Positions 11,511 to 39,401 of a stretch of 64,000 nt of DNA are shown here, piece after piece (position 1 is the stretch's first letter; the number at the start of each line of letters is the position of its first letter). The stretch is from positions 62,001 through 126,000 of the IMG/VR virus record IMGVR_UViG_3300036820_000003. The stretch is one strand, 5' to 3'. Both the position numbers and the translations under genes were made by a program. The notes below the pieces were generated by a model. It was not told the origin of the DNA and did no database searches. It saw only the letters and a list, made by a program, of their open reading frames with translations. This DNA is from a virus.

Positions 11511-11532
11511 GGATGTCCTTCCTACGTTGGAA

Positions 11533-11552: not shown

Positions 11553-11574
11553 ATGCGTAAAACCTACAGCATAC

Positions 11575-11611
11575 GACCGCGCGCCGCAACCTTTTGATGC
11601 GGTGCGCGGTC
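11575..11611 (-). terminator. Terminator after the VWA gene
   Basis: 13-bp arms (11575-11587 and 11599-11611) with one mismatch and a loop containing AAAAGG start 6 bp after the VWA stop codon. A TTTT follows about 20 nt further on the minus strand. It separates the RiPP/VWA transcription unit from the secreted protein. Confidence 0.7.
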
Positions 11612-11617
11612 AGTCGG

Positions 11618-12397: not shown

Positions 12398-12479
12398 GCT
12401 CTTCCTTCCGTAAACCCTCTGTGTGGGGGCGTGTGCGTAAACAGCCTACAGCCGCCGACTTCGCGATGCAAGGGGCAGG

Positions 12480-13703: not shown

Positions 13704-13752
13704 AAGAGGTCTCCTCCAGGATGACGGCGAGGGGGGTGATGGCGATGGGCAT
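13579..13752 (-). CDS. RiPP precursor, FxSxx-COOH type, with three repeats
   Basis: 57 aa, ATG at 13752, GAAAGG site 10 nt upstream. Leader-like N-terminus MPIAITPLAVILEETSCGS. Then three repeats: SPD-IYPFNNAI (21-31), APD-SLFQSKI (38-47), SPD-TPFNSDI (48-57). The peptide ends exactly in F-N-S-D-I, the FxSxx-COOH signature of FxsA substrates of FxsB-type radical SAM enzymes. Usual FxsA peptides have one C-terminal site; here the motif recurs, suggesting up to three crosslinks (inference). It lies 24 bp after the phosphoesterase stop and overlaps the maturase gene. The repeats are in this frame only, which supports genuine coding. Confidence 0.85.
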   Translation of the reverse strand: MPIAITPLAVILEETSCGSDSPDIYPFNNAIRDENDSAPDSLFQSKISPDTPFNSDI

Positions 13753-13776
13753 GAGACGGCTGCCTTTCGTTGCGGG

Positions 13777-21566: not shown

Positions 21567-22434
21567 TGTGGGGGGCTGGACGTTCGGGGCGGAGCTGGAA
21601 TGGCCGGATGTGGACCGGCGGGCCGAGCTGGGGGGAGGCTGGGCGTGGTCGGTGACGGACTACACCGTCGTCAACTCGGACGGGACCGCCAACGATCCGC
21701 GCGGTGAGCTGAATCGCTGGGGCGGGGAGCTGAACACGCCGGTTTGCGGATCGGTCGAGGAGCTGGGCGAGCGCGCGGGAGAGATGCGGGCGCAGTTGAA
21801 GCCTGGTCACAACTACCGGTCGAATCTCCACATTCACGTGGCGGCTCCGGAATTTGCGGACGTCGAAAATCTGAAGAGAATCGCTGAATTCTCGCGTCGG
21901 GAGCTGCCAGGGGCGCTCAAGATGATGGACCCGCTGAACGGGCTTTTCTCGGGTCTGACGGACGAGGCGGAAGTGGCGGGGGCGCGGAAGCGAATGGCGC
22001 ACTCGGAGCGGAGTCGTCACTATTTTGTGTCGGATGCTCGGCACGCTCGTCGGATGGAGGCTCGGGGGATTGAGGAGATGCTGCGAGCCGAGGTTCCGAT
22101 GAGTCGCGAAGGGGCTCCGTGCTGGGCGCTGGCGTCGCGGGAAGCCGTCAATTTGCGTTCGATGCGGAAACACGGGACGATCGAGCTGCGCTGTTTCGCG
22201 GCGGACGGATCGGGCGAGAACGTGTGGGCGGCGGCGAGCTTCAGTCGGGACTGGCTGGCGACGGCGCTTGAGGGAGGCGAGGTGTTCGAGCTTCCCTACT
22301 TCTACTCGCTGCCGATTCAGCCTGCTTTCGAGCTGAAGCTCGAAAGAGGCTGGGAGTGGACGAACCTCAAGCACAATCGTCGGAACGTGGTGCGCGGACG
22401 GCTGGCTGAGATGAGGGGCCTGTGCGAATCGTAG
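21559..22434 (+). CDS. Amidoligase-like enzyme (COOH-NH2 ligase)
   Basis: 291 aa; GTG at 21559 overlaps the previous stop. It begins with TFGAELEWPDVD, the GxE(x)E motif of the glutamine-synthetase-like amidoligase family, then RSNLHIHVAAPEF and a late HGTIELRCFAADGS, which carries the second metal/nucleotide-binding Glu-Arg pair. Such enzymes join a carboxylate and an amine using ATP. In this cluster it could extend or cap an amino-acid adduct on thymine (inference). Confidence 0.7.
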   Translation: MADVGGWTFGAELEWPDVDRRAELGGGWAWSVTDYTVVNSDGTANDPRGELNRWGGELNTPVCGSVEELGERAGEMRAQLKPGHNYRSNLHIHVAAPEFADVENLKRIAEFSRRELPGALKMMDPLNGLFSGLTDEAEVAGARKRMAHSERSRHYFVSDARHARRMEARGIEEMLRAEVPMSREGAPCWALASREAVNLRSMRKHGTIELRCFAADGSGENVWAAASFSRDWLATALEGGEVFELPYFYSLPIQPAFELKLERGWEWTNLKHNRRNVVRGRLAEMRGLCES

Positions 22435-22862
22435 CCGTCTGCACGGGGAACGTCGCCCGGAGCCCCGCCCTGGAGTGCCTGCTGCAGGAAGGGCTGGCGG
22501 GGGTGGAAGTGCGCTCGGCGGGGGTGGGCGACAAGGCCGTCGCCGGGCTGCGGATGAAGCCCTACATGCGGATGATCCTGGGGAGAGAGGGTTTCGGCGA
22601 CTTCGCGGAATCCCATCGCTCGTTCGTGCTGCGAGGCGAGGAAGCGATCGCACCGGATCTTTTCGTCGCGGTGAGCCGAGTGCACGTGCGGAAGCTTGGC
22701 GGGATGTTTCCCGAGGTGCCGGTTCTCTTGTGCGATCCGATTATCCCGGATCCGGCTTTCGGCGGGCTGGATGCCTACGAGGAAGCGTGGAACTTGATTC
22801 AGACGGCCTCGGATGATATGATTCGCAGAATCGAATCCGAGGACTGGGGGAGCTGCGAGTGA
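22422..22862 (+). CDS. Low-molecular-weight phosphatase-fold protein
   Basis: 146 aa; GTG start overlapping the amidoligase end. CTGNVARSP at residues 7-15 is the C-x4-(x)-R-S phosphate loop of LMW phosphatases/arsenate reductases, and DPIIPDPAFGGLDAYEE supplies the general-acid Asp. It could remove a phosphate from a protein, sugar or modified nucleotide. Its place inside the cluster suggests a role in the DNA modification chemistry or in regenerating an intermediate. Confidence 0.75.
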   Translation: MRIVAVCTGNVARSPALECLLQEGLAGVEVRSAGVGDKAVAGLRMKPYMRMILGREGFGDFAESHRSFVLRGEEAIAPDLFVAVSRVHVRKLGGMFPEVPVLLCDPIIPDPAFGGLDAYEEAWNLIQTASDDMIRRIESEDWGSCE

Positions 22863-23701
22863 AGATTCTGGTGGTGGGGGCGGGAATCGCCGGGTCGTGC
22901 GTGGCTCGACTGGGGTCCGAGCGCGGTCACGAGATGAGGGTGATCGCGCGAGGCGATGAGCCGGATTCGCTCGCGGCGACGGCGGTGCTGCGTCGAGGTT
23001 ATCACTCAGGGGGGTCGCTTGAGTCCTGGGACTACGCGATCCAGTGCTATGAGCGCTGGGGCGTTCGAATGGCGAGAGGCGGGGCGGTTTCCAGCTATCG
23101 GAGACTGCTGGCGGAACCTCGTGCTGATGCGGACTGGACCCTGATTGATCCGGCTGCCCCCCTGGTGCAGGCCGATGTGAAAAGGGAAGTGGTGTCGGCG
23201 CATGGCGGCCGGGTGTGGTTCGGACCGGGGGCGGGGGAGGCGGGGGACGCCGTTGTGGTGGCCTGTGGCGCTCGCGGCGGGCTGTTGCGGCCGGCGGGCG
23301 CTGTTGGCGGCGCGATCGTTACCTATGGCGTTACGTGGGTCCACGCGCCGGAGGCTTTGAAGGAGCCCGAGGTTATGAGGGTGTATCAGTACGCCCCTTA
23401 TCGAACTCTGCTGGCGGGTGTGGCCGGAGGAAAGGCGCGCGTCGGTAGTTCCTCGGCTGCGGGAGAGGAAAAGGCGGTGGAGCAGGGGCGGAAGATGCTC
23501 CAGACCGCGTGGGATCTGGGCTGGCTGACGACTCTTGACGAGTGGGAAATGCGAGTGGGGGCGCGTCTGAAGAGTCAGGAAGTCTGGTGGCGCGAAGGCG
23601 ACGGTCACTGGGAAATCGGCGGATTTCATCGAACGGGGTACGCTTTGGCTCCCGGGGCCGCTCGCGATGTGCTGGACGACATCGAGAAGTCAGCTCTGTG
23701 A
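22859..23701 (+). CDS. FAD-dependent oxidoreductase, DAO type
   Basis: 280 aa; overlaps the previous gene by 4 bp (GTGA). Rossmann dinucleotide loop GAGIAGS near residue 7, then the conserved second strand and a C-terminal substrate region (VGARLKSQEVWW, HRTGYALAPGAARDVLDD). DAO-family flavoenzymes oxidise amines of amino acids. In thymidine hypermodification pathways a flavoenzyme works on an amino-acid adduct, which fits the neighbours. It is shorter than free-standing amino-acid oxidases. Confidence 0.75.
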   Translation: MKILVVGAGIAGSCVARLGSERGHEMRVIARGDEPDSLAATAVLRRGYHSGGSLESWDYAIQCYERWGVRMARGGAVSSYRRLLAEPRADADWTLIDPAAPLVQADVKREVVSAHGGRVWFGPGAGEAGDAVVVACGARGGLLRPAGAVGGAIVTYGVTWVHAPEALKEPEVMRVYQYAPYRTLLAGVAGGKARVGSSSAAGEEKAVEQGRKMLQTAWDLGWLTTLDEWEMRVGARLKSQEVWWREGDGHWEIGGFHRTGYALAPGAARDVLDDIEKSAL

Positions 23702-23707
23702 TTTGAT

Positions 23708-23736
23708 TTGACAGGCTCTTTTTTTTACGCTAGATT
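23708..23736 (+). promoter_or_regulatory. Leaderless promoter for kinase-dioxygenase unit
   Basis: TTGACA (23708-23713), 17 bp containing a T8 tract, TAGATT (23731-23736), 6 nt, ATG at 23743. No ribosome site. The T8 and adjacent sequence may also weaken upstream transcription. Confidence 0.8.
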
Positions 23737-23742
23737 TTGCTT

Positions 23743-24315
23743 ATGGATCTCGTTTATCTGGCCGGGGCTCCCGCCGTCGGCAAGTCGACTCTGATGGCCA
23801 GGCTGACTGAGGGCGCTGAGCGGGTGGCTCGAGCTGACGTGAAGCTGGTGCCCTACGACGAGCTGAGGGTTGCGGGCGAGGTTGTCGGGGCGGAGATCGG
23901 GAAGCGTCGGGTGAACTTCCCGGGGACTGATTCGCTTGCGATGAACGCTCTGCCGAACGTCGCTAAATGGCTCGACGCGAAGATGTTCGACGTGGTGTGC
24001 GCGGAGGGGGATCGTCTGACGCACGTGCGATTCTTTGGCTCGGCGGCGGACGCCGGGTACTCGGTGCACGTTTTCCTGCTGCGAGCGCCAATGTCGGTGC
24101 TGGATCGGCGATGCGAGGCGCGAGGGTCGAACCAGAGTCGGAGCTGGCGGCTCAGCCGGGTGACTCTGGGCGAGCGGGTGGCGGCCTGGGCCGAGGCCGA
24201 GGACAGGATCTCGATGCACTACCTCGATTCTCAGAGACCTGTCACGGAGCTGGCCGAGGAAGTGCGACGGGCTGTGCCCGCGATGGAGATTCTGCGTGAG
24301 CGGGTGGCTGGCTGA
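23743..24315 (+). CDS. P-loop kinase, 5-hydroxymethyl-dU DNA kinase-like
   Basis: 190 aa, ATG exactly where the leaderless transcript should begin. Walker A GAPAVGKST at residues 9-17; then EIGKRRVNFPGTDSLAMNAL, CAEGDRLTHVRFF, and SVLDRRCEARGSNQSRSW. The block order (R..F.GTD.L.M, EGDRL, RR..RG..Q..W) fits phage DNA kinases that phosphorylate hydroxymethyl-dU in DNA. It would supply the substrate of the transferase at 20643. The stop overlaps the dioxygenase start (TGATG). Confidence 0.75.
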   Translation: MDLVYLAGAPAVGKSTLMARLTEGAERVARADVKLVPYDELRVAGEVVGAEIGKRRVNFPGTDSLAMNALPNVAKWLDAKMFDVVCAEGDRLTHVRFFGSAADAGYSVHVFLLRAPMSVLDRRCEARGSNQSRSWRLSRVTLGERVAAWAEAEDRISMHYLDSQRPVTELAEEVRRAVPAMEILRERVAG

Positions 24316-25574
24316 TGGCTGCCGCCGCTGTTGTGAGGACCCCGGGAGTGCGACTGGGCTATCGAGTTGCGGACTCCATTATCGAGCGCGACATTGAAGG
24401 TCGGACCTTGGGGGAGGACGACTACGACTGGCTTCTCACGGGCGGACCGCTGATGGTCAGGAGTCCGGAGGGGGCTCCGGTGGCGTGCTATCTGCCAGGG
24501 GTTTTGAAGGGCGTCATGGCCGAGGTCGACGCTTACCGGCTGCTGCATCCCCTGCACACGATGATGACGAACAATCGAGGCAAGGCGTCGGGTACGCGAC
24601 GGATCGCCCGGGGGGACGGGGACGGGACGAGGAGCGACTCCGTCTCGATGTCGAGTCCCACTATCGGGTCGGCGGATCCAGGGTCGGTGTACCGCTACTG
24701 TCGCATGACGGAGTGGACCGGGGCGCATCTGCCGGAGTGGGAGGCGCTGGCTCCCCTGTTCCGGGTGATTGCGAGTCATCTTGAAGAGCGAGTTCCGGAG
24801 CGATACAACGCCCAGATGGAGTACGTCCGGAAGACGAATGAAGCGTGGGTGGTGCCGGGAACGCCGTTCACGACGATCACGGTGAATAACAGTTACTCCA
24901 CCGGGGTGCACAAGGATCAGGGCGATCTGGAGGCCGGGTTCTCGACGCTGGCGTGCGTGCGTCGCGGCGAGTACTCGGGCGGCGTGCTGGTCATGCCGCA
25001 GTATAGGTTCGGCGTGGACATGCAAGACGGTGATCTTTTGCTGATGGACGCGCACCAGTGGCACGGGAACACGCGAATGACGTGCGCCTGCGGCGAGCGG
25101 ATTTTCAATCGATTCTGCGGGGTATGCGGCGCGGAGCGGATTTCGCTGGTGTGCTACTATCGGACTCGGATGGCGGAATGCGGGAGCCCTGCGGACGAGC
25201 TGGAAAGAGCGCAGGTAAACACCGAGAAGCGATCCCAGCCGCGCGTCGGACAGGATATCATTGACGCTGCCGCGTCAGTGATGCCGATTCCGATTGCAAA
25301 TCCTGACCCCGCCCCTGATGACGGGGGGGCTTCAATTGCAACTGTGCCTGCGGCGCCGATTGTCGACGAACTTGAGGCTCCCGCCAAGAGGCGCGGTCGT
25401 CCCAAGAAGCAGGTCGGGGTGCTCGACGTTGAGGTTGAGGTTGAGGCCGCGAAGCCGGAACCTGTCGTCAAGCGTCGGGGTCGGCCGCGCAAGGTCGCTG
25501 AGCCTGATAAGATCGCAGTGGCCAAGGCCGATTTGATGAAGTTTGATCCCGTGACCGGTGAGCCTTTGGAGTGA
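24315..25574 (+). CDS. TET/JBP-like 2-oxoglutarate/Fe(II) DNA dioxygenase with AT-hooks
   Basis: 419 aa. Core: PFTTITVNNSY, VHKDQGDLEAGFSTLACV with the HxD iron ligands (about 198 and 200), GEYSGGVLVMPQYRFGVDM, DAHQWHGN with the distal His, a small Cys-rich insert (CACGERIFNRFCGVCG), and ISLVCYYRTRM with the 2-oxoglutarate Arg. This is the TET/JBP phage group. The tail has two AT-hooks (KRRGRPKK and KRRGRPRK) that should bind DNA. If it hydroxylates thymine it would make the hydroxymethyl-dU used by the kinase; 5-methylcytosine is the alternative substrate. Confidence 0.82.
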   Translation: MAAAAVVRTPGVRLGYRVADSIIERDIEGRTLGEDDYDWLLTGGPLMVRSPEGAPVACYLPGVLKGVMAEVDAYRLLHPLHTMMTNNRGKASGTRRIARGDGDGTRSDSVSMSSPTIGSADPGSVYRYCRMTEWTGAHLPEWEALAPLFRVIASHLEERVPERYNAQMEYVRKTNEAWVVPGTPFTTITVNNSYSTGVHKDQGDLEAGFSTLACVRRGEYSGGVLVMPQYRFGVDMQDGDLLLMDAHQWHGNTRMTCACGERIFNRFCGVCGAERISLVCYYRTRMAECGSPADELERAQVNTEKRSQPRVGQDIIDAAASVMPIPIANPDPAPDDGGASIATVPAAPIVDELEAPAKRRGRPKKQVGVLDVEVEVEAAKPEPVVKRRGRPRKVAEPDKIAVAKADLMKFDPVTGEPLE

Positions 25575-25577
25575 GGA

Positions 25578-26120
25578 GTGAGTGGAATGGGTCGTCGAAC
25601 CGAAACGATGGAACGCGACGCTAAGATGTACTTGCGTCACACCAACAACATCCCGCACGACGCGATCGCGGCTGAGTTCGGGGTGTCGCTTGCTACTGTC
25701 GCGACGGGGATTCGACGGGCCATCCAGGACACCTTCAGGCTGTCGGCTGAGGAAGAGCGCCAGGTCGTGGACGATAGACTTTTGTATTTGGAGCGTCGTC
25801 TGCGGGTGATGGCCTCCAATAAGCACTATCGCGTTTCGGTTTCAGGGAAGGTCGTCGTCGATCCGATGACCGGGGAGCCGTTGCTGGACGACGAGCCGGA
25901 GTATCGGGCTCTGATGGCCATCTCGAAGATCGAGGGGCAGCGCAGCAAGCTTCTCGGACTCGACATGCCGGTGCGTCATCGAGTCGAGATCACCGACAAG
26001 ATGGACGAGGAGATCGAGAAGCTCGCGATGGAGCTTTCGATCCACGGCGCTGGCGAGAAGGTAGAGCCGGAGCTGCCGGTGGGGACGGGAGTCGTTGATG
26101 GTGACGGTAGCGACTCCTGA
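25578..26120 (+). CDS. Putative terminase small subunit
   Basis: 180 aa directly before terL. N-terminal helix-turn-helix (NNIPHDAIAAEFGVSLATVATG) for DNA binding, a coiled middle (EEERQVVDDRLLYLERRL) for oligomerisation, and an acidic tail. GTG at 25578 has GGAGTGAGGA upstream. It should recognise the packaging site and load the large subunit. Confidence 0.7.
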   Translation: MSGMGRRTETMERDAKMYLRHTNNIPHDAIAAEFGVSLATVATGIRRAIQDTFRLSAEEERQVVDDRLLYLERRLRVMASNKHYRVSVSGKVVVDPMTGEPLLDDEPEYRALMAISKIEGQRSKLLGLDMPVRHRVEITDKMDEEIEKLAMELSIHGAGEKVEPELPVGTGVVDGDGSDS

Positions 26121-27792
26121 TCCTGGGGGGGAAGAGCCGGAGAAAGGCGATCTGCCTCCGGATTGGCGGGATCTCAGTCCCGAGGCCAAGAAGGCCCTGC
26201 TGCATAAGCTCAAAGGGAAACACATCTCTTTGGGACTGGGCGGACCGCGCAAGTGGCGGGCTCTGGCGCGACCCAAGCAGCTGAGTCCAGATGATCCGGT
26301 GCATCATCTGCCGGACGGCAACGGGTTCGCCTGCGCGTGCGGGGCGCTGGATAGTAGCTTCAACATCTGGATGTTCATGGCCGGCCGAGGCTGCGGGAAG
26401 ACCTGGGCCGGATCCAACTGGATCATCGAGCAGGCGCTGAAAAACCCGGGGACCATGTGGGCCGTCGTGGCTCCCACCTTCCGCGACGTCCGAGTGACTT
26501 GCTTCGAGGGACCGTCTGGGATACGCCGTCAGCTAGAACCAGGTGAGGAAGACCAATGGCGACGCAACGAGTTGCGACTCGACCTGGTGAACGGCTCGAT
26601 TCTCTACGGGTACTCGGCTGACCAGCCTGAGCGACTTCGCGGGAGTAATCTTTCAGGTGCTTGGTGTGACGAGATGGGCTCGTGGCAATATGAGGAGACC
26701 TGGTACGAAGGGCTGGTTCCCGCTCTGCGTATTGGCGAGCATCCCCGTGTGATGGTAACCACCACTCCTCGTCCCACCAAGCTGGTGCGCGATCTGTACG
26801 GACGTCGCGACGGGACGGTCCACATCACCACCGCCTCGACCTGGGAGAACGCCGCAAACCTTTCCGCCGCAGCTCTTGACGAACTACGTCGTCGGTACGA
26901 GGGAACGCGCCTGGGTCGTCAGGAGCTTGAAGGCGAGCTGCTGGAGGACCTTGAGGGGGCTTTGTGGAAGCGATCCGACATCGACGCCGCGCGAGTGCGG
27001 CTGGGGGATGTGCCGGATCTGATCCGGGTGGTTGTCGGGATTGACCCGGCTGTCACCTCGACCGAAGAGAGTGACGAGACCGGAATCATCGTCGCGGGGG
27101 ATGACGGGCATGGTCACGGCTACGTGCTGGCGGACTACAGTATGAAAGGGTCGCCTGAGGCGTGCATGCGGGAGGCCGTCCGGGCATACAAGCGTCACGG
27201 GGCTGACTGCATTGTCGCGGAGGTGAACAACGGCGGTGACTTCATCGGAGCGGTGGTTCGTGCAGTTGACCCGGATGTGCCATATCACACCGTGCGAGCT
27301 AGCAGGGGTAAAGCTCTCCGAGCTGAGCCTGTTTCTGCTCTTGCTGAGCAACGGAGACTTCACCACGTAGGCAACCTGCCCGAGCTGGAAGATCAATTGT
27401 GCGCCTACGTGCCCGGAATAGGCGACTCGCCTGACCGGATGGACGCGCTGGTCTGGGCGGTCTTCGAGCTCAAGGGATTGAGTCAGGCCTCGTGGCTGTC
27501 GGCCTACGGAGCCTGTCGCTGCTCGGGATGCGACCACGTGTACACCTCGCATCTTAAGGAGTGCCCGCGCTGCCGGACGGCGAATCCGGCGGAGGCTGAG
27601 CGGATTGCGGCTCGGGAGCGAGATGAGCCGACGGAGGAGGAGCCTGTCGTGGGCGGCTGGGCGTCGGTTTATCACCTGCGTCGCTGCGAGCGAGGGCACG
27701 CCTACCCCGAGAAAATGGGGGCCGGGGGATGCCCGCGCTGCCGATCGGACGGACTGGGTTTTTTGAAGTCGGCCGGTCGCGCTGTGCGTTGA
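26098..27792 (+). CDS. terL: Terminase large subunit
   Basis: 564 aa; ATG at 26098 overlaps the small subunit. ATPase: Walker A GRGCGKTWAG, Walker B-like GAWCDEM, motif III VTTTPRPTK. Nuclease: GIDPAVTS, VAEVNNGGDF and DRMDALVWAVFEL with acidic residues for metal binding. The C-terminus adds two or three zinc-ribbon-like CxxC pairs (CRCSGCDHVY, CPRCRTAN, CPRCRSDG), which is longer than usual and may help bind portal or DNA. Confidence 0.95.
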   Translation: MVTVATPDPGGEEPEKGDLPPDWRDLSPEAKKALLHKLKGKHISLGLGGPRKWRALARPKQLSPDDPVHHLPDGNGFACACGALDSSFNIWMFMAGRGCGKTWAGSNWIIEQALKNPGTMWAVVAPTFRDVRVTCFEGPSGIRRQLEPGEEDQWRRNELRLDLVNGSILYGYSADQPERLRGSNLSGAWCDEMGSWQYEETWYEGLVPALRIGEHPRVMVTTTPRPTKLVRDLYGRRDGTVHITTASTWENAANLSAAALDELRRRYEGTRLGRQELEGELLEDLEGALWKRSDIDAARVRLGDVPDLIRVVVGIDPAVTSTEESDETGIIVAGDDGHGHGYVLADYSMKGSPEACMREAVRAYKRHGADCIVAEVNNGGDFIGAVVRAVDPDVPYHTVRASRGKALRAEPVSALAEQRRLHHVGNLPELEDQLCAYVPGIGDSPDRMDALVWAVFELKGLSQASWLSAYGACRCSGCDHVYTSHLKECPRCRTANPAEAERIAARERDEPTEEEPVVGGWASVYHLRRCERGHAYPEKMGAGGCPRCRSDGLGFLKSAGRAVR

Positions 27793-28607: not shown

Positions 28608-31600
28608 ATGGCTGGACGTAATTCAACATTGATGGCGGCGAAGTACGTGCCGGGCGGGGCTCGTCCGACCGCCGCACCTCAGGGAGCCGGGGCTCCCTAC
28701 TACGGGATGCTAAGCCCCTTGGCAAATCAGCTGGCGAATGAGCGCGGGTATTGCCTCGGTCCAGACACGCAAGTGCTGTGCTCGGATTTCCAGTGGCGGC
28801 CGGTGATCAGTCTTGCTGAAGGTGACCAGATCATTGGGTTCGATGAATTCCCGGAGCCACACAGCAAGCGTAAGTTCCGTATGTCAACAGTACTCAGCTG
28901 CCCGATCGTGGAACTACCCTCCTACCGGATCACGTTCACTGATGGTCGGCAGGTCACGGCTTCAGCTGAGCACATGTGGCTGGATGGACGATGCAGTCGT
29001 TGGTTGAAGACGAAGAATCTACGTCCTGGTTACAGGATCATGCACCTAGGCACCCCCTGGAAGCAAGACAGGTCGTGGGGCGGAGGCTGGCTTGCAGGGG
29101 CATTTGATGGTGAGGCTAACTTTGCTACTCATTCTGAGAACAGCCATTGCGGTTGGCACATCCAGTTCTCTCAGAACGCTGGAAGTGTCCTCGATCTGGC
29201 AGAACGACTCCTCAAGGAACGCGGGTATGAGACTCGGGTTAAGGCTCCTCAAGATGGTCGAGCAGTTCACCGTCTACTCATTACCGGCGTAGAGGACTGC
29301 TTCCGATTCCTCGGTTCGTGTCAGCCGGTTCGACTGCTGGACAATTCGGCTGCGTGGATCGAAGGTCAGAGCGGCAAGAAGTCCCGTGGAACTGCACGCG
29401 GTCGGGTGTACAACGCTGTCGTAGAGAGCGTTGAGTACCTGGGTGAGCAGGACGTGGTAGCTATCTCCACGTCCACCCGGACGCTGTTCGCCGAAGGTCT
29501 GTACTCGCACAACTCGAACAGCTACGGCCCGTTTCTGCCGAGGCCCGCTCGTACTTTTACAGAGGGTGCGTTCGGGCCGTTCAGTCCGATCCTGCCGGTG
29601 CCGCTGGATGCTCCGGCTGTTGAAGACGGTCAGCCGGATCCTCGACTATGGGAGTACCCGGTCGGGTGGAACCTGCCGGTGGGGCAGCCGGGGACCGAGG
29701 GACTCAAGCTCGTCGACTTCGCTACTCTCAAGACGCTTAGTGACACTTATTCGGTCGCGCGTAGTTGCATCGACCGTCGCAAGTACGAGGTCTGCGGACT
29801 GGACTGGGATATCGTCCCCACGCACGAGGCTTCGAAGGCGTATCAAGGGGACAGGAAAGCGATGCGCGACTTCGGGGAACGAGTCGCCAAGGCTAAGCGA
29901 TTCTTTCGGCATCCCGATCCGGACTATTTTACTTTCTCGGACTTTCTATCGGCTATGCTGGAGGAAGTGTTCGTTTACGACGCTTTGGCAATCGTCATGC
30001 GACCCAAGTGGGGCAAGGGAGTCGGGGCGGGGCTACTGGGTTCCGACCTGGACTGCCTGGAGCTGATCTCGGGTCCGACGATCCGACCTCTGGTCGGGCT
30101 GCACGGAGAGGTGCCGCGTCCGCCTGCTCCCGCGTACCAGCAGTACCTGTACGGCGTTCCGCGCTCGGACTACATGACGATGATCACCCAGCGAGACATC
30201 GACGAGGCCGGAATCGGCGGGTCGGAGCTGCAGAACTTCCGCACCGACCAGCTTATGTACCTGCGCACGACGCCGCGACGGGAAACGCCCTACGGGTTCT
30301 CGCTTACCGAGAAGGCGATCATCCCCATCCTGACCGGACTGCAGAAGCAGGCCTTCCAGTATGACTACTTCCGGGAGGGGACCGTCCCGGCGGTCTACAT
30401 CTCACCCGGGGATGCTTCTATCACCCCGAATCAAATCCGGGAGCTGCAGGACGCCCTTAACGCGATCGCCGGGGACGTGGCGTTCCATCACAAGATCATC
30501 GTTTTGCCACCCGGTTCCAAGACCATGCCGCAGAGGGACGCTCAGCTGGCGGATCAGTTCGACGAGATCGTCATGACCGAGGTCGCGATGGTCTACGACG
30601 TGGACCCGATGAGCCTGGGAATCGTCCCGAAAGTCGCGACTTCGGTGTCGCCTTTCGCCGCGAAGGAGATGGCGCAGGCGTCGGCGTCGGTTCATCAGAG
30701 GACGTCGACTAAGCCTCTGTTGTCTTTTATCACCGACATCTTCAACAACATCCTGCATCGCGTGTGCGGTCAGGACGACATGAAGTTCACCTTCGAGGGG
30801 ATGTCGGAGACCTCGGACGCGGCTGCGACGACTGACCTGGTGGTCAAGCAGGTCCAGTACGGAATCCGGTCGGTCGACGAGGGTCGGGCCGAGCTGGAGC
30901 TGCCGCCGTGGAACATGCCCGAGACCTCGGGTCCTGTCGTGTTCACGCAGATGGGACCGGTCCCGTTCGAGATGGCACCGCAGCTGCTGATGCAACAGCA
31001 GCAGGGCGCGGGTGGGAGCGGAGGGGGAGCCAAGGCCGGGGGAGGGAATTCTTCCGGATCGGGGAAGCGAACGCGGGCTACTTCGACGACTGGTCGCGGT
31101 GATCAGTACGGCGGGCCGGGAGTTCCCCGGCACGGGAACCTGCCGGCTCCTTCTTCGACTCGGATTTCTTCGGACGTTCCGCCGGAGCGGAAGAAGACCC
31201 CGGCTCACGACGCGGCCGAGGGGGCGATGTCGACCGGGAGTTCGAAGCCGGGGGGCGGCCGGGTCGGGGCCTCCAAGGCGGCGGCGGCCGAGCTGGAGGC
31301 GCTTGGTCGTCACTTGCGGAAGGGTCGGGACATTCGCACCTGGAAGGCGGTCAACGTTCCCGGGGCAATTGTCGAAGCGATAGCCGAGGACCTGCAAAAG
31401 GGCCTCTCGTTCGACGAGGCAGTCGGATCTATTCCCGTGTTCGGCGTGGAATGGGTGACCGGAGACACGCTCCCAAAAGCCCGAGGGGTCACTGAGTGGC
31501 CCGGCTGGAAGCACGATCTAGGGTTGGTCGCGGCTTACACCGACCTGCTGCGGAGGATGTTTTCCAAGGCTGACGGGCAAGCCGGGAAGATCCGTGGCGA

Positions 31601-32957
31601 GTACGCGCACTCGGTGGTGTCATACACGCCGGGCATGTTCGACGGGATGATTGCGGATCATCTGCAGGAAAAGGTGGCGGGAGCGCTTGAGCCGCTGGCG
31701 CGGGAGGCCTGGAAGCTCGGCTACGGGAGCGCGCTGGAGCTAATAGGCGACCGGTCGGTTAGCTTCGGGTCGAATCCGGATGCGTTCGTCGGGACGGAGG
31801 TGCGACATTGGGCCGAGACGATTGCGCGGACCGGTCTTAAGGACGCCGCGCGCCGGGCGGAGGTTATCGCCCGGACCGAGGTGGCTCGCGGAGTGAGCGC
31901 CGGAGCGATGCAGGCGTATGCGGATGCCGGGATTTCGTACAAGCACCTGCTCCTGGCTCCGGATGACGCCTGCGAGAAGTGCGTCGATGCTGATGAGGAA
32001 GTAATTCCCCTGCACGCTCCGTTCGGGACGGGGGATGTCGCTCCTCCGTTTCACCCGCAGTGTCGCTGCGGAGTGGCCCCGTCCGGAGTGGACGTGACGC
32101 CTCCGCAGGGGCACCTCGGGAAGTCGGAGTCAGAGAGGAAGCCCGACGTCGCTTTTCTTCTCATCCGCACTCGTAATTCCGAGGGGAAGCGTCGCTACCT
32201 GCTGCAGAAGCGAGGCGAGGAAGCCTCGCACCCTGGGACCTGGGGGCTGTTCGGCGGGAAGGGGCATCCGGGGGAGACCCCGTGGGAGACGGCTTGCCGG
32301 GAGGCGGGGGAGGAAACCGGGGGACTGCCGAAGGATCTTGTCCCTCGGGGCGTCATGTTCACGCCCGGTGACAAGCGAGACTGCTGGACCTACGTGTGCG
32401 ACGTGGCGGAGGAGTTCAGTCCGGGTGGCGGGGTCACCCCCTGGGAGTCGGCGAGCTGGGGCTGGTTCAGTCGGGACGACGTGTCGGGACTGGAGCTGCA
32501 TCCCAAATTCGCGGAAACGTGGGACGTGTACGTCGGGGAAGTGCTCGGCAAATCGAAGAAGAGGGTGCTGGTCTCCGGTCAGGAGATCTACCCGTCGGAC
32601 TCGGAGACCGGCGAAGACGATGAGTGGCCTGCGAGCGGCGGGGGCGGGGAGTACCCGCACTCGCACGACGTGGACGGGACTCCGGTGGCTCCGGGCGGGA
32701 AGCCCGGGTCGGAGCCTCCGCGCTGGGACGGTGATGAAGCTGAACCCTATGTGCAGATGCCGGGTGGTCCCGGAGGAGCAGCCGGGCGTGCCCCGGATTC
32801 GCCCGCCGGAGGCGGGAGTTGCGACTCGACGTGTGATGATCCCGGTCATGCTCACTCGACTCCGATTGACGGGAACGTTCCGGACGACGAGGATGACGCT
32901 CGTCAGCCGTTCGTGAGGGGGCGACCTCCGAATGCTATCGGAAAAGGCCGCTCGTGA
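28608..32957 (+). CDS. Portal-MuF-NUDIX fusion protein interrupted by an intein
   Basis: 1449 aa with strong GGAGGTGCGGG site. Parts: short N-extein (1-48); intein (49-302); portal (about 303-820, with RSCIDRRKYEVCGLDWDIVP, YGFSLTEKAIIPI, VYDVDPMSLGIVPK); a Gly/Gln/Ser-rich linker; a MuF-like minor head domain (RRAEVIARTEVARGVSAGAM, then CEKCVDADEEVIPLH, PPFHPQCRCG at about 1150); a NUDIX hydrolase (GGKGHPGETPWETACREAG, then EETG, about 1212-1236) with an intact Nudix box; and an acidic, His-containing tail. Splicing is needed for a working portal. MuF fused to portal is known; a catalytic NUDIX appended to it is unusual. Confidence 0.9.
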   Translation: MAGRNSTLMAAKYVPGGARPTAAPQGAGAPYYGMLSPLANQLANERGYCLGPDTQVLCSDFQWRPVISLAEGDQIIGFDEFPEPHSKRKFRMSTVLSCPIVELPSYRITFTDGRQVTASAEHMWLDGRCSRWLKTKNLRPGYRIMHLGTPWKQDRSWGGGWLAGAFDGEANFATHSENSHCGWHIQFSQNAGSVLDLAERLLKERGYETRVKAPQDGRAVHRLLITGVEDCFRFLGSCQPVRLLDNSAAWIEGQSGKKSRGTARGRVYNAVVESVEYLGEQDVVAISTSTRTLFAEGLYSHNSNSYGPFLPRPARTFTEGAFGPFSPILPVPLDAPAVEDGQPDPRLWEYPVGWNLPVGQPGTEGLKLVDFATLKTLSDTYSVARSCIDRRKYEVCGLDWDIVPTHEASKAYQGDRKAMRDFGERVAKAKRFFRHPDPDYFTFSDFLSAMLEEVFVYDALAIVMRPKWGKGVGAGLLGSDLDCLELISGPTIRPLVGLHGEVPRPPAPAYQQYLYGVPRSDYMTMITQRDIDEAGIGGSELQNFRTDQLMYLRTTPRRETPYGFSLTEKAIIPILTGLQKQAFQYDYFREGTVPAVYISPGDASITPNQIRELQDALNAIAGDVAFHHKIIVLPPGSKTMPQRDAQLADQFDEIVMTEVAMVYDVDPMSLGIVPKVATSVSPFAAKEMAQASASVHQRTSTKPLLSFITDIFNNILHRVCGQDDMKFTFEGMSETSDAAATTDLVVKQVQYGIRSVDEGRAELELPPWNMPETSGPVVFTQMGPVPFEMAPQLLMQQQQGAGGSGGGAKAGGGNSSGSGKRTRATSTTGRGDQYGGPGVPRHGNLPAPSSTRISSDVPPERKKTPAHDAAEGAMSTGSSKPGGGRVGASKAAAAELEALGRHLRKGRDIRTWKAVNVPGAIVEAIAEDLQKGLSFDEAVGSIPVFGVEWVTGDTLPKARGVTEWPGWKHDLGLVAAYTDLLRRMFSKADGQAGKIRGEYAHSVVSYTPGMFDGMIADHLQEKVAGALEPLAREAWKLGYGSALELIGDRSVSFGSNPDAFVGTEVRHWAETIARTGLKDAARRAEVIARTEVARGVSAGAMQAYADAGISYKHLLLAPDDACEKCVDADEEVIPLHAPFGTGDVAPPFHPQCRCGVAPSGVDVTPPQGHLGKSESERKPDVAFLLIRTRNSEGKRRYLLQKRGEEASHPGTWGLFGGKGHPGETPWETACREAGEETGGLPKDLVPRGVMFTPGDKRDCWTYVCDVAEEFSPGGGVTPWESASWGWFSRDDVSGLELHPKFAETWDVYVGEVLGKSKKRVLVSGQEIYPSDSETGEDDEWPASGGGGEYPHSHDVDGTPVAPGGKPGSEPPRWDGDEAEPYVQMPGGPGGAAGRAPDSPAGGGSCDSTCDDPGHAHSTPIDGNVPDDEDDARQPFVRGRPPNAIGKGRS
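28752..29513 (+). mobile_element. Intein in the portal gene (254 aa)
   Basis: Begins with Cys49 in CLGPDTQVLC and ends ...LYSHN followed by Ser, the canonical splice junctions. Hint blocks: PVISLAEGDQIIGFDE, the TxxH-like TASAEHMW, and AISTSTRTLFAEGLYSHN at the end. GWLAGAFDGEANF is a LAGLIDADG-type homing motif; I see only one clear copy, and 254 aa is short for a full homing intein, so the endonuclease may be degenerate or minimal. Codon use is less GC-rich than in the exteins, consistent with transfer. Confidence 0.9.
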
Positions 32958-33378
32958 TCTGTGGGATCCTAATCCGGTGGAGGCGCTGCACGTCCACGGG
33001 ATGATGATGCAGAACTTCCCCGGGGAGGCGCTCGACTGGGTGCTGCGGACTCGCTGGATCGGCCCGATGGCCGTCCCGTGGGAGCGGATCGATCGAGATG
33101 ATCAGGAAAAGTGGGCGGCGTCGCATCAGCCGGGGAAAGTGGCGTCGTTTCGAAAGATGATCGCGAACGGGGAGGGCGTTCATCCCTGCGTGCTGGTGCA
33201 GCCTCCCGATTCGGATCGGGCTGTCATCGTCGACGGTCATCATCGCGCGATGGCTTGGGCTCAATGTGGAAAGCCGGTGCGAGGTTACGTCGGATTTGTG
33301 CGTCGGGGAGATGTTCAGGCCGCGTTGGAGACTCACTCGTCGCAAATGCACTCAGGGTCGAGTCCTAGCAATCGCTAA
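32932..33378 (+). CDS. ParB/Srx-like nuclease-domain protein
   Basis: 148 aa overlapping the portal gene by 26 bp. MAVPWERIDRDDQEKW, then GKVASFRKMIANGEGVHPCV and VIVDGHHRAMAWAQCGKPV give the ParBc core with the (D)GHHR motif. Proteins of this type often sit next to, or are fused with, MuF domains in actinophages. It may modify or cut DNA during packaging, or use a nucleotide. No signal for export. Confidence 0.75.
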   Translation: MLSEKAARDLWDPNPVEALHVHGMMMQNFPGEALDWVLRTRWIGPMAVPWERIDRDDQEKWAASHQPGKVASFRKMIANGEGVHPCVLVQPPDSDRAVIVDGHHRAMAWAQCGKPVRGYVGFVRRGDVQAALETHSSQMHSGSSPSNR

Positions 33379-33413: not shown

Positions 33414-33797
33414 ATGGCGAAAAAGATGAGTGTCGAACTGATCGACGACATTGACGGATCCGAGGCGTGCGAGAGCATTCGATTCTCGATTGACGGCGGC
33501 GTCTATGAAATCGATCTGAATGCCGTGCACGCGAGTGAAATGCGCGCGGCCTTCGAGGAATATGTCAAGGCCGGGCGCAGAGGATCGGCTATCCGGGCTG
33601 CGGCTCCCATCTCGACGGGGGATCGCGGAGGATCGCGTCGTCGGGCGGCTGATCCGCACAACGCGGTGGTGCGCGCGTGGGCGGCCGAGAAGGGACTGGC
33701 GTGCAACACGCACGGCAGGATTCCCGAGCACATTCTAGTTCTATTCAATAACATGAACAAGGATAGAGATAGGGATACGGAACATGGCGAACAGTGA
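33414..33797 (+). CDS. lsr2: Lsr2-like nucleoid-associated protein
   Basis: 127 aa. N-terminal dimerisation domain: MAKKMSVELIDDIDGSEACE, IRFSIDGGVYEIDLNAVHA, MRAAFEEYVKAGRR. C-terminal DNA-binding domain: NAVVRAWAAEKGLACNTHGR followed by IPEHILVLF. The AT-hook-like RGR of host Lsr2 is HGR here, so the first Arg is replaced by His. Lsr2 silences AT-rich foreign DNA in actinobacteria; a phage copy could interfere with, or recruit, host silencing. It has its own promoter, so it can be expressed apart from the late genes around it. Confidence 0.9.
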   Translation: MAKKMSVELIDDIDGSEACESIRFSIDGGVYEIDLNAVHASEMRAAFEEYVKAGRRGSAIRAAAPISTGDRGGSRRRAADPHNAVVRAWAAEKGLACNTHGRIPEHILVLFNNMNKDRDRDTEHGEQ

Positions 33798-34304: not shown

Positions 34305-36002
34305 ATGTCCTACCAGTCCGTCGTCCTCGCCGACAACCCCACGTTCCTGTGGCTGCTGGCGGATACGTCAGGGGTAGTGGCGGCTGACGCCACCGGCAAC
34401 GGGAACATCGGAAATTACACCGGCGGATACACGCAAGGGGTTCCGGGTCCACCTGGAGTGGACGCCAACGCCGTCTTGCTGAACGGCAGCACCGGATTCG
34501 TCTACACGAACTCGAACTACTACTCGTCGGCTTTCTCCGCCGAAATCTGGTTCAACAGCACGTCGCCAGACGGCGGCACTATCATGCAAGGCAACGCCTG
34601 GCTCGCCATTCTCGGCGACGACGGCAAGATCACCTACGTCGTCTACAACGGAGCAGTGCTTATCTCCTGCGAGTCATCTGGCTCGTACGGAGACGGGAAC
34701 TGGCATTACGTCGCGGTCACCTACGACGGCAGCCTGAACGCCGTACTGTACGTCGACGGGGTCGAAGTCGCGTCTGCCGTTGTCACGCCCAGTATGGCGA
34801 ACTCACCCGGCAGCCCGGTCTACTCGACCGGGTACGGCTCGCAGTCTGTCAGCACCAGTGATCTGCTGGCCGGGACGGTTTCGGCTTTCGCCGACTACCC
34901 GTACGCGCTGACGTCGGGTCAGGTGACGACTCACTACGACGCCGCCATTCCTCCTAGCGGATCCGCAGAGGGTCAGGCCCAGCCCCTGACGGCTCGGGTT
35001 TGGGGGAGGCGGACCGAAGGTCGGGGCAACTGGCGGGGAAATTCCGTCAATGCCGTACTCGGAATTCGCGGATCTTTCCAGCCTCGCGCAACTGTCCCGA
35101 CATCGCGTCGTTCCGGGACTCGGTCTGCCTGGCGAGAAGTGCGGGGAGCGTTCCCGTTGCTCGGCAAGCCGGTGGTCGGGGGGACTGTCCGACGGCGCAG
35201 TGCGACTCGCGTTGCATGGAAGTCGGTTAAAGGGACGCTTCCCCCGGCGATCGGCAAGCCCGCGACTGGCGGTTTTGTCGAGCGACGTCGCGCTGCCCGA
35301 GGCGCGTGGAATCGGGTTCTGGGACCGTTTCCCCTGCTCGGGAGAGCTGAGAGAGGCGGGGTCGTTGTTCCTCGCCATAGTCAGCGAGCAGTCTGGCGCG
35401 GGGTTCGGGGGACGCTGCCTCCCGCGATCGGGATACCTTTCGTCGGCGGATTCGTAACCCGTCGGAATGGCGTGCGCGGGATGTCCGCGCACGTGGCGGG
35501 AGCTCACAACGCCACTGCCGTCCCGGCAAGCCCTCTTGTCGGCGGTTTCGTCGCGCGAAGACGATACGTGCGCGGGTCGTCGCGCGGAGCTGACGTTCCA
35601 GTAATTCGTGGCAGGGCTGTTACCGGAGGCGTTGTCTGCCCGCGACGAGGAACTTCGATACGCGGATCCTGGGGGGGAGTCAACGGTCCGGAGATTCGCG
35701 GAGTCGCGAATATCGGAGGATGCGTAGCACGTCATCCTCGTATCCCCCGTGTTCCGTGCTGGCGCGGAACGATTGTCCGAACCGTCAACGTCATCCCGCC
35801 GAGAGGAACCGTTCCGCCTCGGGTGTTCGTGATGAGACGACGAGGGGTCGGAGTGGTGTGGCGGGGAGTTGTGCCCGTCGGTGTGAATCAAGTGATCGTG
35901 TTCGGTCCGGCGATGCAGATAGTGCTCGGGCCTTTGGGACTGGACTGGCAGACGGGGGCGGTGGGATTCGACTGGCAGACAGGAGTCGTCGGAGTCTGGT
36001 GA
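34305..36002 (+). CDS. LamG-domain virion protein with Arg-rich repeats (565 aa)
   Basis: Residues 1-215 are a LamG/concanavalin-like domain (AEIWFNSTSPDGGTIM, GNWHYVAVTYDGSLNAVLYV). From about 225 on, at least seven degenerate repeats of about 30 residues follow, with the pattern G.P..GG.V.RR...R..W..V.G (for example GKPVVGGTVRRRS, GKPATGGFVERRR, GIPFVGGFVTRRN). This half is extremely basic. The LamG part suggests glycan binding; the basic part could bind nucleic acid, teichoic acid or acidic virion proteins. Similar LamG folds recur in the tail protein at 53968. Confidence 0.75.
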   Translation: MSYQSVVLADNPTFLWLLADTSGVVAADATGNGNIGNYTGGYTQGVPGPPGVDANAVLLNGSTGFVYTNSNYYSSAFSAEIWFNSTSPDGGTIMQGNAWLAILGDDGKITYVVYNGAVLISCESSGSYGDGNWHYVAVTYDGSLNAVLYVDGVEVASAVVTPSMANSPGSPVYSTGYGSQSVSTSDLLAGTVSAFADYPYALTSGQVTTHYDAAIPPSGSAEGQAQPLTARVWGRRTEGRGNWRGNSVNAVLGIRGSFQPRATVPTSRRSGTRSAWREVRGAFPLLGKPVVGGTVRRRSATRVAWKSVKGTLPPAIGKPATGGFVERRRAARGAWNRVLGPFPLLGRAERGGVVVPRHSQRAVWRGVRGTLPPAIGIPFVGGFVTRRNGVRGMSAHVAGAHNATAVPASPLVGGFVARRRYVRGSSRGADVPVIRGRAVTGGVVCPRRGTSIRGSWGGVNGPEIRGVANIGGCVARHPRIPRVPCWRGTIVRTVNVIPPRGTVPPRVFVMRRRGVGVVWRGVVPVGVNQVIVFGPAMQIVLGPLGLDWQTGAVGFDWQTGVVGVW

Positions 36003-36004: not shown

Positions 36005-36274
36005 CTAGGGCAGCTCAATCCAGAGTTTTTTCACGACTTCATCGGCTTCGTCACGATCCAGTATCATCGTGATGGTGATCTTTGTGGTACCATCATCTTG
36101 CTGCTCCAGATTGTAGGAGTTCGGTCGTTTGAGGAAAGCCAGGATCTCCAGGTCCTGGCGAATCGATCCGAGCGAATCGCGTATGTTGCTCAGATTGATT
36201 TGCCCCGGATCAACATGCTTGATCGTGGAGCGTATGTCATCCAGACGGGTGATGGCGTCATTGTAGTAGGGCAT
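36005..36274 (-). CDS. Small antisense-oriented gene between structural genes (89 aa)
   Basis: Natural-looking composition (RLDDIRSTIKHVDPGQINLS, SLGSIRQDLEILAFLKR, TKITITMILDRDEADEVV), lower GC than its neighbours, helical then beta. It stops 2 bp from the end of the convergent gene. TATAAT lies 5 nt upstream of its ATG, fitting a leaderless transcript. Function unknown; a moron is likely. Confidence 0.65.
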   Translation of the reverse strand: MPYYNDAITRLDDIRSTIKHVDPGQINLSNIRDSLGSIRQDLEILAFLKRPNSYNLEQQDDGTTKITITMILDRDEADEVVKKLWIELP

Positions 36275-36279
36275 GGCTA

Positions 36280-36285
36280 ATTATA
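36280..36285 (-). promoter_or_regulatory. TATAAT box of the small leftward gene
   Basis: Perfect TATAAT on the minus strand 5 nt before the ATG at 36274. The -35 at 17 bp distance is poor (TGGTGT). It lies in front of the true start of the rightward protease gene (GTG 36324). Confidence 0.55.
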
Positions 36286-36323
36286 GCAAGGATGATGGCT
36301 GCACACCACTTGGAGGGATTGCT

Positions 36324-39300
36324 GTGGCAGCGACGTTGACTGACAGTGGTGAGCAGACTGCTCCTGTTTCATACTGGTCGTTCCCTATTGAGAAGACAGT
36401 GAAGACCGCCGACGGCGACTTGATCGTCTACGGTCGTGCGACTGACGGTTCGGTAGACTCCGACGGTCAGATCGTGGACCTGGACTGGTCCGGCAAGGCA
36501 CTGGACGAGTGGGCTCCCATCGGGAACGTGCGAGTCCAGCACCAGGCCCAGCGGGATCCGGCCGGCAAGGCGATCGAGATCGTCCATCAGGCTGACTCGC
36601 ACTGGGTGAAAAGCCTGATCGTCGAGCCGGTGGCGAAGAGACTTGTCGAGAAGGGCGTGCTGACCGCCTACTCGGTCGGCATCGCGCGTCCTGTCATCGA
36701 GCCGGATGTGACCGGCAAGGCGCGCGGCGGGATTATCCGAGGCGGGACGCTGGTGGAGCTATCGCTGGTGGATCGTCCTGCGAACAAGAACTGCGGCATT
36801 CAGCTGGTGAAGTCAGCTGACGGCGGCGAAGCCGAGGTCGTCTGCAAGGTGTGGGGTGACGAGGAGATCCTCACAAAGGACGGAGGCGGCGGGGTTCAGG
36901 GGACGATGCCGACTCCGACGTCCGTTGACGACGACGATCTCCCGGACTATGACAAACCGTCGCCCGAGGGGACTGCGCCGACTGATCCGACTGACGGAGG
37001 GCTGACCGGAAAGTCCGCTGATGTTCGCTACAGCTCGGTCTCGGTGGAGCTGCCGGGGGACGTTTCGGTCGCGTTCAGTCCCGCAGATCTGGCGAAAATG
37101 AACACCTTCGCCCAGGAGCTTGGCGCCGAGCTGGCTGAACTTGGACAGGTAGCCTTCGCTGAGGAGAAGTTCCTGGGGAAGGGTCATCGCAAGTTCAGCG
37201 CACGTCGAAGGAAGGAACTAGCCGGGGGCGGGAACGCTCTTCCGGATGGATCGTATCCGATTCCGGATAAGGACGCGCTGAGGCGAGCCGCTATTCTCGC
37301 GCGGAGTGGTCATGGGAATGTTTCGGCCGCTCGGAGGCTGATTTCAAGGAGAGCAAAGGAGCTGGGAGTGTCCAATCCGCTTAGTTCGAACGATGCCGAG
37401 AAGAGCGAGGGGGATGTGACTCCCAGCCCGATCGCAGTCGAGGACGTGTCCAAGGGCATGTGCTCGGAATGCAAGAAGCCGATGTCCAAGTGCTCGTGCA
37501 GCACCGCCGACATGAGCAAGAGCGACGTGGAAGCTGACTCCGAAAAGGGCATCGCCCAGATGAATCACGACGACATGGACACCGACAGCGGCGAGGACTC
37601 CGACTCCGGTGCGGACAAGTCCGAGAATGCTGCCGTCGAGGAAGGGTCAGAGAAGTCGTCCAAGCCGAAGAAGGGCGGAAAGGGCGGAAAGGGCGGGAAG
37701 TCGATGCCGCCCTGGATGAAGGACAAGGAAAAGGACGGGGACTCCGATTCCGACGATGACAAGAAGTCCGACAAGGCCGCTCCGACTGACGGGGTGCGGG
37801 GTATGACCTCGGATCCGCTGCCAGTGCATCGTGAGCCGGACGGGCTGGCGATCGAGTCGATGGAAGCGGACGCGGGACTGCCGACGGTTCCGGACTCCTC
37901 GGTGTCGGGAGTCGGGAAGTCTGACGGGGCCGGGGCCGGGGCCGAGTTCACCGAGATGGACACGGCGCTGCGGCTGAAGACAGTGGGAGTGGCGTATACG
38001 CTGGGGGCTCTGCACGACATGTGCTGCCCGGCGTTCGCTCCGGGGGACGTCGCGAAGGGACACCCGGGAGCGTCGTTCTCGGGGATTGACCTGATGTTCT
38101 TCGCGCAGAAGGCGATGGACGCCGCGTCGGTTGCAACCGGTGCGACGATGCAGGAGGCGGCTCGGGCTTCGCGTCTGTGGACGCACGCGCAGACTCTCAA
38201 GAGTCTTACGGACGCGGACGCGCTGGAACTGCAGACGGAGGCGCACAAGGCCTTCCGTGATGCTAATCCCGGGGTCGGCTCGGCTCCCACCCCGGGGCAT
38301 ATCTCGGCTGGCAGCTTCAAGAGGCCCGCGATTACCGCCGGGCACGCGGCCGACAGCCCCGGGCACGACGGACCGCACACCGCGACGATCCCGCCGGAGG
38401 GCGGGATTCACGCAGAGAGCTTCGGGAGAGGATTCATCTCGGAGGGGCACGCGGCTGATTCGCCTGCTAACAAGGGAGTCGGGGTGCCGACGTCGGTGGA
38501 TTACGTCCCGACGATCCGAGAGAACGCCCGGGCCGCGATGCGCGCGATGCACGATCACGTCGCGCAGACCTTCCCCGACGTTTGCCCGATGGAAATGTCG
38601 GGTGATGAGCGGACGGTCATGTCGCGTCCGGTGCCGGTTCCCGGCGGGACCCCGGCGACTCAGGCGGCGCGAATCGGGCAGGTCGGCAAGTCCGAAGACG
38701 GGGTGGATGTGACAGTCGGGAAGGAGACTGAGCACCCGACCGACGTTATGAAGGGACTGGTCGACGCCGACGTCGAAAAAGCCGCGAAGAAGATGCGTCG
38801 GAAGCTCGGCAAGAAGGTTCTGTCGGGTAAGATGACCGTAGACGAGGCTCGCGCCCAGATCGGGCGGAGGATCGCTCAGAAGGCCGGCGGCCAGACGATG
38901 ATCTCCTCCCCCTCGATGGGCGGTGGCGGCATGAAGTCCGAGACAGAAGCAGCTCCGGTGGTGCCGGAAGTTGTCAAGTCCATCGGGTACGCCGCTCCCT
39001 CACCAATCAATGTGTACCCGTCCGCGCCCGCTCCCGCGACTGCGGTGATCGACGCGGATGTCGTGAAGTCGGCTGTCGAGGCTGCGGTGGCACCGCTGCT
39101 GGAGAAGATGGCCGCGGATCGAGAGGCCTTTCAAGAGCGGATTGCCGCGCTTGAGGGAATGCCCGACCCGAACGTGACGGCGTTCCGGGGAATGGCGTAC
39201 GCGAGCAAGAGTATGAGTGCGCGCCCGGCGGGCGCGAATATGGATGAACTCCGAGGTCGGACTCAGGCCATGATGCTAAGCCAGGCCGAACAGGAATGGC

Positions 39301-39374: not shown

Positions 39375-39401
39375 TGAGATTTTTGATTGATTGGAGACGT
39401 C

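Follow-up and report, generated by a model that had tools for sequence, protein, structure and literature searches.

The window analyzed here, a stretch of 64,000 nucleotides from a soil phage, comprises positions 62,001–126,000 of a 129,940-base virus record of IMG/VR (IMGVR_UViG_3300036820_000003), which is possibly incomplete. A single open reading frame without internal stop codons encodes an N-extein, an intein, a portal, a MuF region and a NUDIX domain (Table 1). The first-pass annotation of the DNA had described such a frame of 1449 codons with a 254-aa intein and a full Nudix box, and the uninterrupted ORF as well as the Pfam and PHROG matches bore this description out. Without the intein, the product comprises 1195 aa (about 128 kDa). 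The Pfam model Phage_portal spanned residues 428–763 with 44.6 bits (cut-off 39.1), and the portal family PHROG 2662 matched with an E-value of 3.8e-60. Phage_Mu_F covered the core of the MuF region (residues 1062–1156, E 6e-8), which was mostly helical in an AlphaFold2 model. The NUDIX model spanned residues 1180–1296 (E 2.5e-14), and PHROG 1198 (MutT/NUDIX) matched with an E-value of 1.9e-12. Since these three curated domains all exceeded the Pfam cut-offs within one frame and relatives with 58–75% identity showed the identical domain order, the fusion is not due to chance. Virion or packaging domains and effector-type domains thus share one polypeptide, as in polyvalent proteins; in several relatives (L002, L005, L024–L028 and others; L numbers denote portal loci from IMG/VR) a ParB-like domain is included as well.

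Table 1. Coordinates of features in the window (positions refer to the 64,000-nucleotide stretch).
Feature	Position	Strand	Remarks
Amino acid:DNA transferase (PF18724)	20643–21566		hypermodification cluster
FAD oxidoreductase	22859–23701		hypermodification cluster
Tet/JBP oxygenase (Tet_JBP)	24315–25574		hypermodification cluster
Terminase large subunit	26095–27792	+	PHROG 979, 1.4e-34; upstream of portal
ORF of N-extein, intein, portal, MuF and NUDIX	28608–32957	+	ATG to TGA, 1449 aa
Intein	28752–29513	+	residues 49–302, 254 aa; empty sites in L003, L004, L005
Portal domain	29514–31097	+	residues 303 to about 830; PF04860, 1.4e-11; PHROG 2662
MuF (minor head) region	31353–32090	+	about residues 916–1161; PF04233; family HMM 2e-81
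NUDIX domain, RenU-like	32136–32552	+	residues 1177–1315; PF00293; VIA-align Z 19.9 to 6uuf
Nudix box GKGHPGETPWETACREAGEETG	32256–32321	+	residues 1217–1238
Gly/Pro-rich tail past NUDIX	32553–32957	+	read from sequence and relatives
ParB/sulfiredoxin-fold domain, DGHHR motif	32932–33378	+	own ORF, +1 frame; PHROG 1033, 3.7e-7
Prohead-protease-like N-terminus with long scaffold-like tail	36273–39374	+	PHROG head maturation protease, residues 44–103

The Gly/Pro-rich tail carries a conserved patch (YPHxH...GG...PPRWDGDE) and bridges to a ParB-like domain in relatives. In the window, this domain, which was missing from the first list of domains, lies on an ORF overlapping the end of the portal ORF by 26 nt. 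In most relatives (L002/L003, L005, L022, L024–L028 and many others), the DGHHR domain continues the polypeptide past NUDIX. Its AlphaFold2 model (pLDDT 90.7) matched sulfiredoxin (Z 8.4) and the ParB-like PadC (Z 8.3), and nearly every listed match belonged to the ParB/sulfiredoxin/free-serine-kinase/SbnI group. A mere sequencing error could have split the ORF, but this explanation is not favored: locus L048, too, encodes ParB on an ORF of its own, complete with a start. ParB-like DNases of polyvalent proteins are discussed by Iyer et al. 2017 (PMC5512222).

Two further genes lie just past the portal gene, encoding an Lsr2-like DNA-bridging protein (33414–33797) and a LamG/concanavalin-like protein (34305–36002). 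The prohead-protease-like product comprises 1033 aa with a very long acidic/lysine-rich tail. ORF 39387–41231 matched only PHROG 13692 of unknown function (4e-66), and a major capsid gene was not identified in the window. A radical SAM protein (12480–13703) and a family-2 glycosyltransferase (6482–7969), both on the minus strand, are encoded farther from the hypermodification cluster. The Lsr2-like protein and the kinship of the intein suggest an actinobacterial host. When genome contigs were searched for prophages with a profile of the portal alignment, no relative was found.

Inteins in the portal gene

The intein begins with Cys49 and ends with His301-Asn302, followed by Ser303 at position +1. 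Intein-free relatives carry the empty site ERGY/SNSYGPF (L004 and L005) or ERGY/ANTYGPF (L003), and the 254 extra residues of the window protein, C49–N302, fall exactly between Y and S of the former. The junction GY-SN named in the first-pass annotation was therefore exact. With a Cys start, a His-Asn end, Ser at +1 and precise absence from homologues, the insertion has the features of a Hint intein, and the precursor is predicted to lose it by splicing. One LAGLIDADG-like motif was found, at residue 162 in the intein region; the Pfam model LAGLIDADG_3 matched residues 160–235 below threshold only. The intein model rSAM_Rv matched with 6e-13, and the nearest known inteins, at 37% identity (E 5e-37), are those of a terminase-like mycobacteriophage protein. 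Both portal inteins (PORT) and terminase inteins are on record in mycobacteriophages (Kelley et al. 2016, PMC5050341). The window intein is inserted in the N-terminal arm of the portal and resembles those of the terminase-like protein.

In locus L005, a portal polypeptide of 2184 aa (7836–14387) contains two inteins at sites that differ from that of the window, and portal inteins at several other positions were observed in L093, L095, L099, L104 and L107. The portal gene is a repeated intein target at several places in this portal family. Intein-splicing matches inside or directly past the MuF region in L097 (7836–13094, with an additional Hint_2 match) and L106 (10315–14229) indicate that MuF, too, is probably hit by inteins. 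An ORF upstream of the portal gene in L077 (1083–2018) contains a sequence similar to the window intein and ends with LFSS, not with a clear His-Asn. No link between the intein and the NUDIX question was visible.

Active site, lineages and exchange of the NUDIX domain

The Nudix box (G1217-x5-E1223-x7-R1231-E1232-xx-E1235-E1236-x-G1238) retains every catalytic residue; the two U positions of the consensus GX5EX7REUXEEXGU are occupied by Ala and Gly and not by I, L or V. The dN/dS ratio of the NUDIX domain was 0.24 between the window and L002 and ranged from 0.04 to 0.35 over 14 pairs (Nei-Gojobori); in the distant pairs, synonymous sites were close to saturation. Thus, the active site is intact and under purifying selection. 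A chance in-frame passenger was considered as an explanation of the NUDIX domain and is ruled out by this selection and by the conservation of the box.

In the AlphaFold2 model of MuF and NUDIX, the NUDIX part had pLDDT values of mostly 78–94. The Nudix fold was confirmed by VIA-align, with RenU (6uuf) as the best match (Z 19.9), at 30% identity and with an rmsd of 2.6 over 140 residues. The NadM ADP-ribose pyrophosphatase (Z 16.0) and NrtR with bound ADP-ribose (Z 15.9) followed, and MutT, NudI, RppH and Dcp2 chains were also among the matches; since NadM, NrtR, NudI, Dcp2 and Ap4A hydrolases were tied within about one Z unit, nothing finer than the first rank of RenU is claimed. RenU also ranked first by sequence (6e-12 as compared to 1e-7 for the next, a gap of about four orders of magnitude), and the C-terminal segment LPLHPGFxxxW, with the motif LHPxFxxxW, is common to both domains.

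IMG/VR was scanned with the protein, the NUDIX alignment and the portal alignment, and loci were annotated with HMMs built for this analysis. NUDIX was found nearby in 48 of 85 non-redundant portal loci (44 of them within the portal polypeptide) and the ParB-like domain in 65 of the 85; these counts are not frequencies, as similarity of portal and NUDIX governed which loci were retrieved, and many of the contigs are incomplete. The Nudix box was intact in 47 of the 48 loci. The fusion is therefore not peculiar to the window phage, as it had been treated at first, but widespread in the portal family, and its class had been predicted (PMC9503650). The domain orders varied: portal-MuF-NUDIX-ParB, portal-NUDIX-MuF, portal-x-NUDIX-ParB, portal-x-ParB-NUDIX, portal-MuF-ParB-NUDIX, or NUDIX on the next ORF (L098, L099 and L106). 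Two NUDIX lineages were distinguished, which are 25% identical as profiles: lineage A, the group of the window, and lineage B, with the phages Sonali and Mufasa8 and most others. The nearest solved relative is RenU for lineage A, while those of lineage B are 3r03, BdRppH, DR1025-type enzymes and NudG. Lineage B appears closer to MutT/NudG/RppH-type enzymes, so that a single substrate common to the whole family is doubtful.

In a tree of 81 portal rows, the NUDIX state (A, B or none) changed at least 14 times, and for lineage B the starred branches by themselves require at least 8 changes; this was a quick tree with some long branches, on which gains and losses are inseparable. Locus L040, which adjoins the clade of the window, has a lineage B NUDIX after ParB. 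Four loci lacking NUDIX (L058, L075, L093 and L097) encode after ParB a 2H phosphoesterase in which both HxT motifs are present, and L077 retains a remnant of one; among them, L075 is placed among portals with lineage B NUDIX. None of the NUDIX-bearing loci has the 2H enzyme. Thus, this slot is a cassette site at which NUDIX of lineage A, NUDIX of lineage B and the 2H enzyme are exchanged among phage lineages. Acb1, a phage enzyme of the 2H type, destroys cyclic-nucleotide immune signals (PMC9117128).

NUDIX also occurs on other head proteins. In L089 (7944–12137), MuF is followed by NUDIX, with an internal insertion and assigned to lineage A by inspection, and by an ADP-ribosyltransferase (PF03496, 8.7e-19). 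Among proteins outside this portal family, gp52 of Streptomyces phage Gilgamesh joins NUDIX to a prohead protease. NUDIX also lies inside a Pam4 protein that bears the annotation capsid maturation protease, and within a 553-aa protein encoded between the portal region and the major capsid gene in Pantoea phage PdC23. An internal head protein is the factor common to these carriers. Two MuF proteins with other domains were observed. That of L092 (10827–15368) comprises 1514 aa and has an alpha/beta hydrolase domain as well as weak PI3/PI4-kinase and intein-splicing matches; in that of L008 (11150–12958), visual inspection revealed a zincin-like HELAH motif close to the C-terminus.

Predicted substrate and role of NUDIX in the head

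Since RenU clearly leads the solved relatives, ADP-ribose-type nucleotides are the best-supported substrate prediction for lineage A. Nudix specificity drifts easily, and 30% identity to RenU is too low to fix the substrate. A proline about 16 residues past the Nudix box marks one subfamily of ADP-ribose pyrophosphatases. It is missing from the window NUDIX; because RenU also seems to lack it (in the aligned part of 6uuf), this was not taken as evidence against ADP-ribose. ADP-ribose, FAD and NADH are hydrolysed by RenU of M. smegmatis, whereas NAD+ is not and NTPs are poor substrates (PMC4401782). Of the substrates proposed at first, ADP-ribose-type compounds gained from this relationship and from the pairing of NUDIX with an ADP-ribosyltransferase in L089, which was counted toward ADP-ribose-type chemistry, while RNA caps and modified dNTPs were weakened by the poor activity of RenU on NTPs.

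An NTP-type substrate, i.e., RNA 5' ends or caps, or damaged or modified dNTPs tied to hypermodification, was weighed separately. MutT, NudI, RppH and Dcp2 are among the fold matches, and the hypermodification cluster on which the first-pass annotation drew is real (20643–25574). However, the DNA polymer is the substrate of both the Tet/JBP and the amino acid:DNA transferase enzymes, so that no pool of modified dNTPs is expected from them and this part of the proposal lost ground. Moreover, an enzyme bound to the head would be badly placed for work on the dNTP pool, and RenU, clearly first among the relatives, disfavors NTPs (PMC4401782). An NTP-type substrate is accordingly regarded as improbable.

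The location of the domain is predicted by homology. Since the C-terminal part of solved portals faces the head interior, the MuF-NUDIX part would lie inside the head. By homology, the portal would form a dodecameric ring at one vertex, presenting 12 copies of NUDIX. An active NUDIX inside the head is considered very probable. Splicing of the intein would leave a portal extended at its C-terminus by MuF, by an active Nudix hydrolase of the RenU type and usually by a ParB-like domain, with MuF-NUDIX(-ParB) hanging inside the head as packaged enzymatic cargo. In some relatives the cargo is carried on a separate MuF ORF, which makes attachment to the portal one of several routes into the head.

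The portal ring stays in the head and cannot be ejected, so a delivered NUDIX would require cleavage. T4 Alt is a head protein that is packaged and injected. Since, in addition, DdrB of phage P1 is a processed head protein (PMC5512222), the prohead protease encoded downstream is the natural candidate and would most likely free the MuF/NUDIX part during maturation. Some freed copies may then exit with the DNA into the host and, early in infection, hydrolyse ADP-ribose, NADH or related NDP-X compounds, including host defence signals or their products. That this entire sequence, from packaging and release to early action on ADP-ribose-type nucleotides, takes place is put at about an even chance. 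The window NUDIX is the only one in the 130-kb record, and neither Macro nor NADAR genes were found in this possibly incomplete record, so no wider NAD counter-defence set backs a counter-defence role.

The domain might instead act in the producing cell during head assembly, trimming ADP-ribose, NADH and similar compounds or late defence signals while bound to the portal or procapsid, and merely be carried along afterwards. Its carrier is a structural protein made late, with the portal gene beside terL, and a ring-attached domain could act without release or ejection. A 12-copy ring would, however, be an odd carrier for a cytoplasmic enzyme, and the repeated use of internal head proteins (portal, MuF and prohead protease) points to packaging as the purpose; action at the assembly stage is therefore judged rather unlikely. 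Even less credence is given to a nucleotide-binding or merely structural module of the portal/MuF assembly in which catalysis is irrelevant. Such a module would agree with the insertions in the box of L053 and inside the domain of L089 and with Nudix domains elsewhere that serve as sensors, e.g., NrtR. Conservation of the catalytic box in all but one of the NUDIX-bearing loci, across both lineages, argues against it, as does the dispensability of the domain, which may be absent, reside on another ORF (L098, L099, L106) or be replaced by 2H; this reading is very unlikely.

Packaged delivery, if it holds, would allow nucleotide signals to be neutralised by a particle-borne enzyme before any phage gene is expressed. 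A broader and tentative proposal, which we would not expect to hold in full, is that the head contains a fixed internal cartridge site for interchangeable nucleotide-destroying enzymes (RenU-like or MutT-like Nudix, 2H, sometimes ADP-ribosyltransferase). These might be swapped as hosts change their nucleotide immune signals, so that the virion would bring the antidote.

Comparison with known systems

The closest functional reference, RenU, differs from the window NUDIX in that it is a free-standing cellular redox enzyme encoded beside pknG and not a virion protein (PMC4401782). The likeness to RenU connects a predicted virion domain with an actinobacterial enzyme that has been characterised, and it provides a definite substrate prediction. 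Arthrobacter phages Sonali and Mufasa8, which have been isolated, combine portal, full-box NUDIX and MuF in one protein (gp3, annotated as portal/MuF fusion or MutT/NUDIX hydrolase), as does the window phage. In contrast to the window phage, NUDIX lies between portal and MuF, belongs to lineage B with 25–28% identity to that of the window, and is accompanied by neither an intein nor a ParB-like domain. With Gilgamesh, these isolates make the idea of packaged cargo directly testable, and the portal family, in which related portals carry NUDIX of lineage A or B, 2H or neither, is a ready comparative set.

The MuF polymorphic toxins (e.g., Apk2, PMC12226406) likewise have MuF followed by a C-terminal nucleotide-acting enzyme. 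In the window, MuF is fused to a portal and the cargo is a Nudix domain; the ORFs following NUDIX are ParB-like and Lsr2-like, with no known immunity family recognised. To our knowledge, the Nudix hydrolase family is not known to act as toxins. The polyvalent proteins of Iyer et al. 2017 (PMC5512222) resemble the window protein as long, virion-linked multidomain proteins with MuF or portal, ParB-like, 2H and ART domains; in the available part of that text, NUDIX is named once, as neighbour or fusion partner of InPase domains, and the order portal-MuF-NUDIX-ParB is not described.

Nudix domains fused to portal, MuF and a capsid-processing serine peptidase, and probably injected, were predicted by Iyer et al. 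2022 (PMC9503650). The likeness lies in the fusion partners and in the proposed packaging into the head and injection against NAD/ADP-ribose-based defence. The clades described there are T4 NudE-like and NadM-like, whereas the domain of the window is RenU-like, and the available part of that survey does not describe portal, MuF and NUDIX in one chain, the ParB-like neighbour, the intein or the swapping with 2H. PHROGs portal family 15528 already includes a NUDIX stretch. Thus, Nudix-portal/MuF fusions were already known as predictions (PMC9503650), and portal inteins are on record as such (PMC5050341). What appears to be new, as judged from sequences and models, is the joining of portal, MuF, NUDIX and ParB in this order in a large family of uncultivated phages, the link to RenU, the exchange of two NUDIX lineages and a 2H enzyme at one place, and the presence of an intein within that portal gene.
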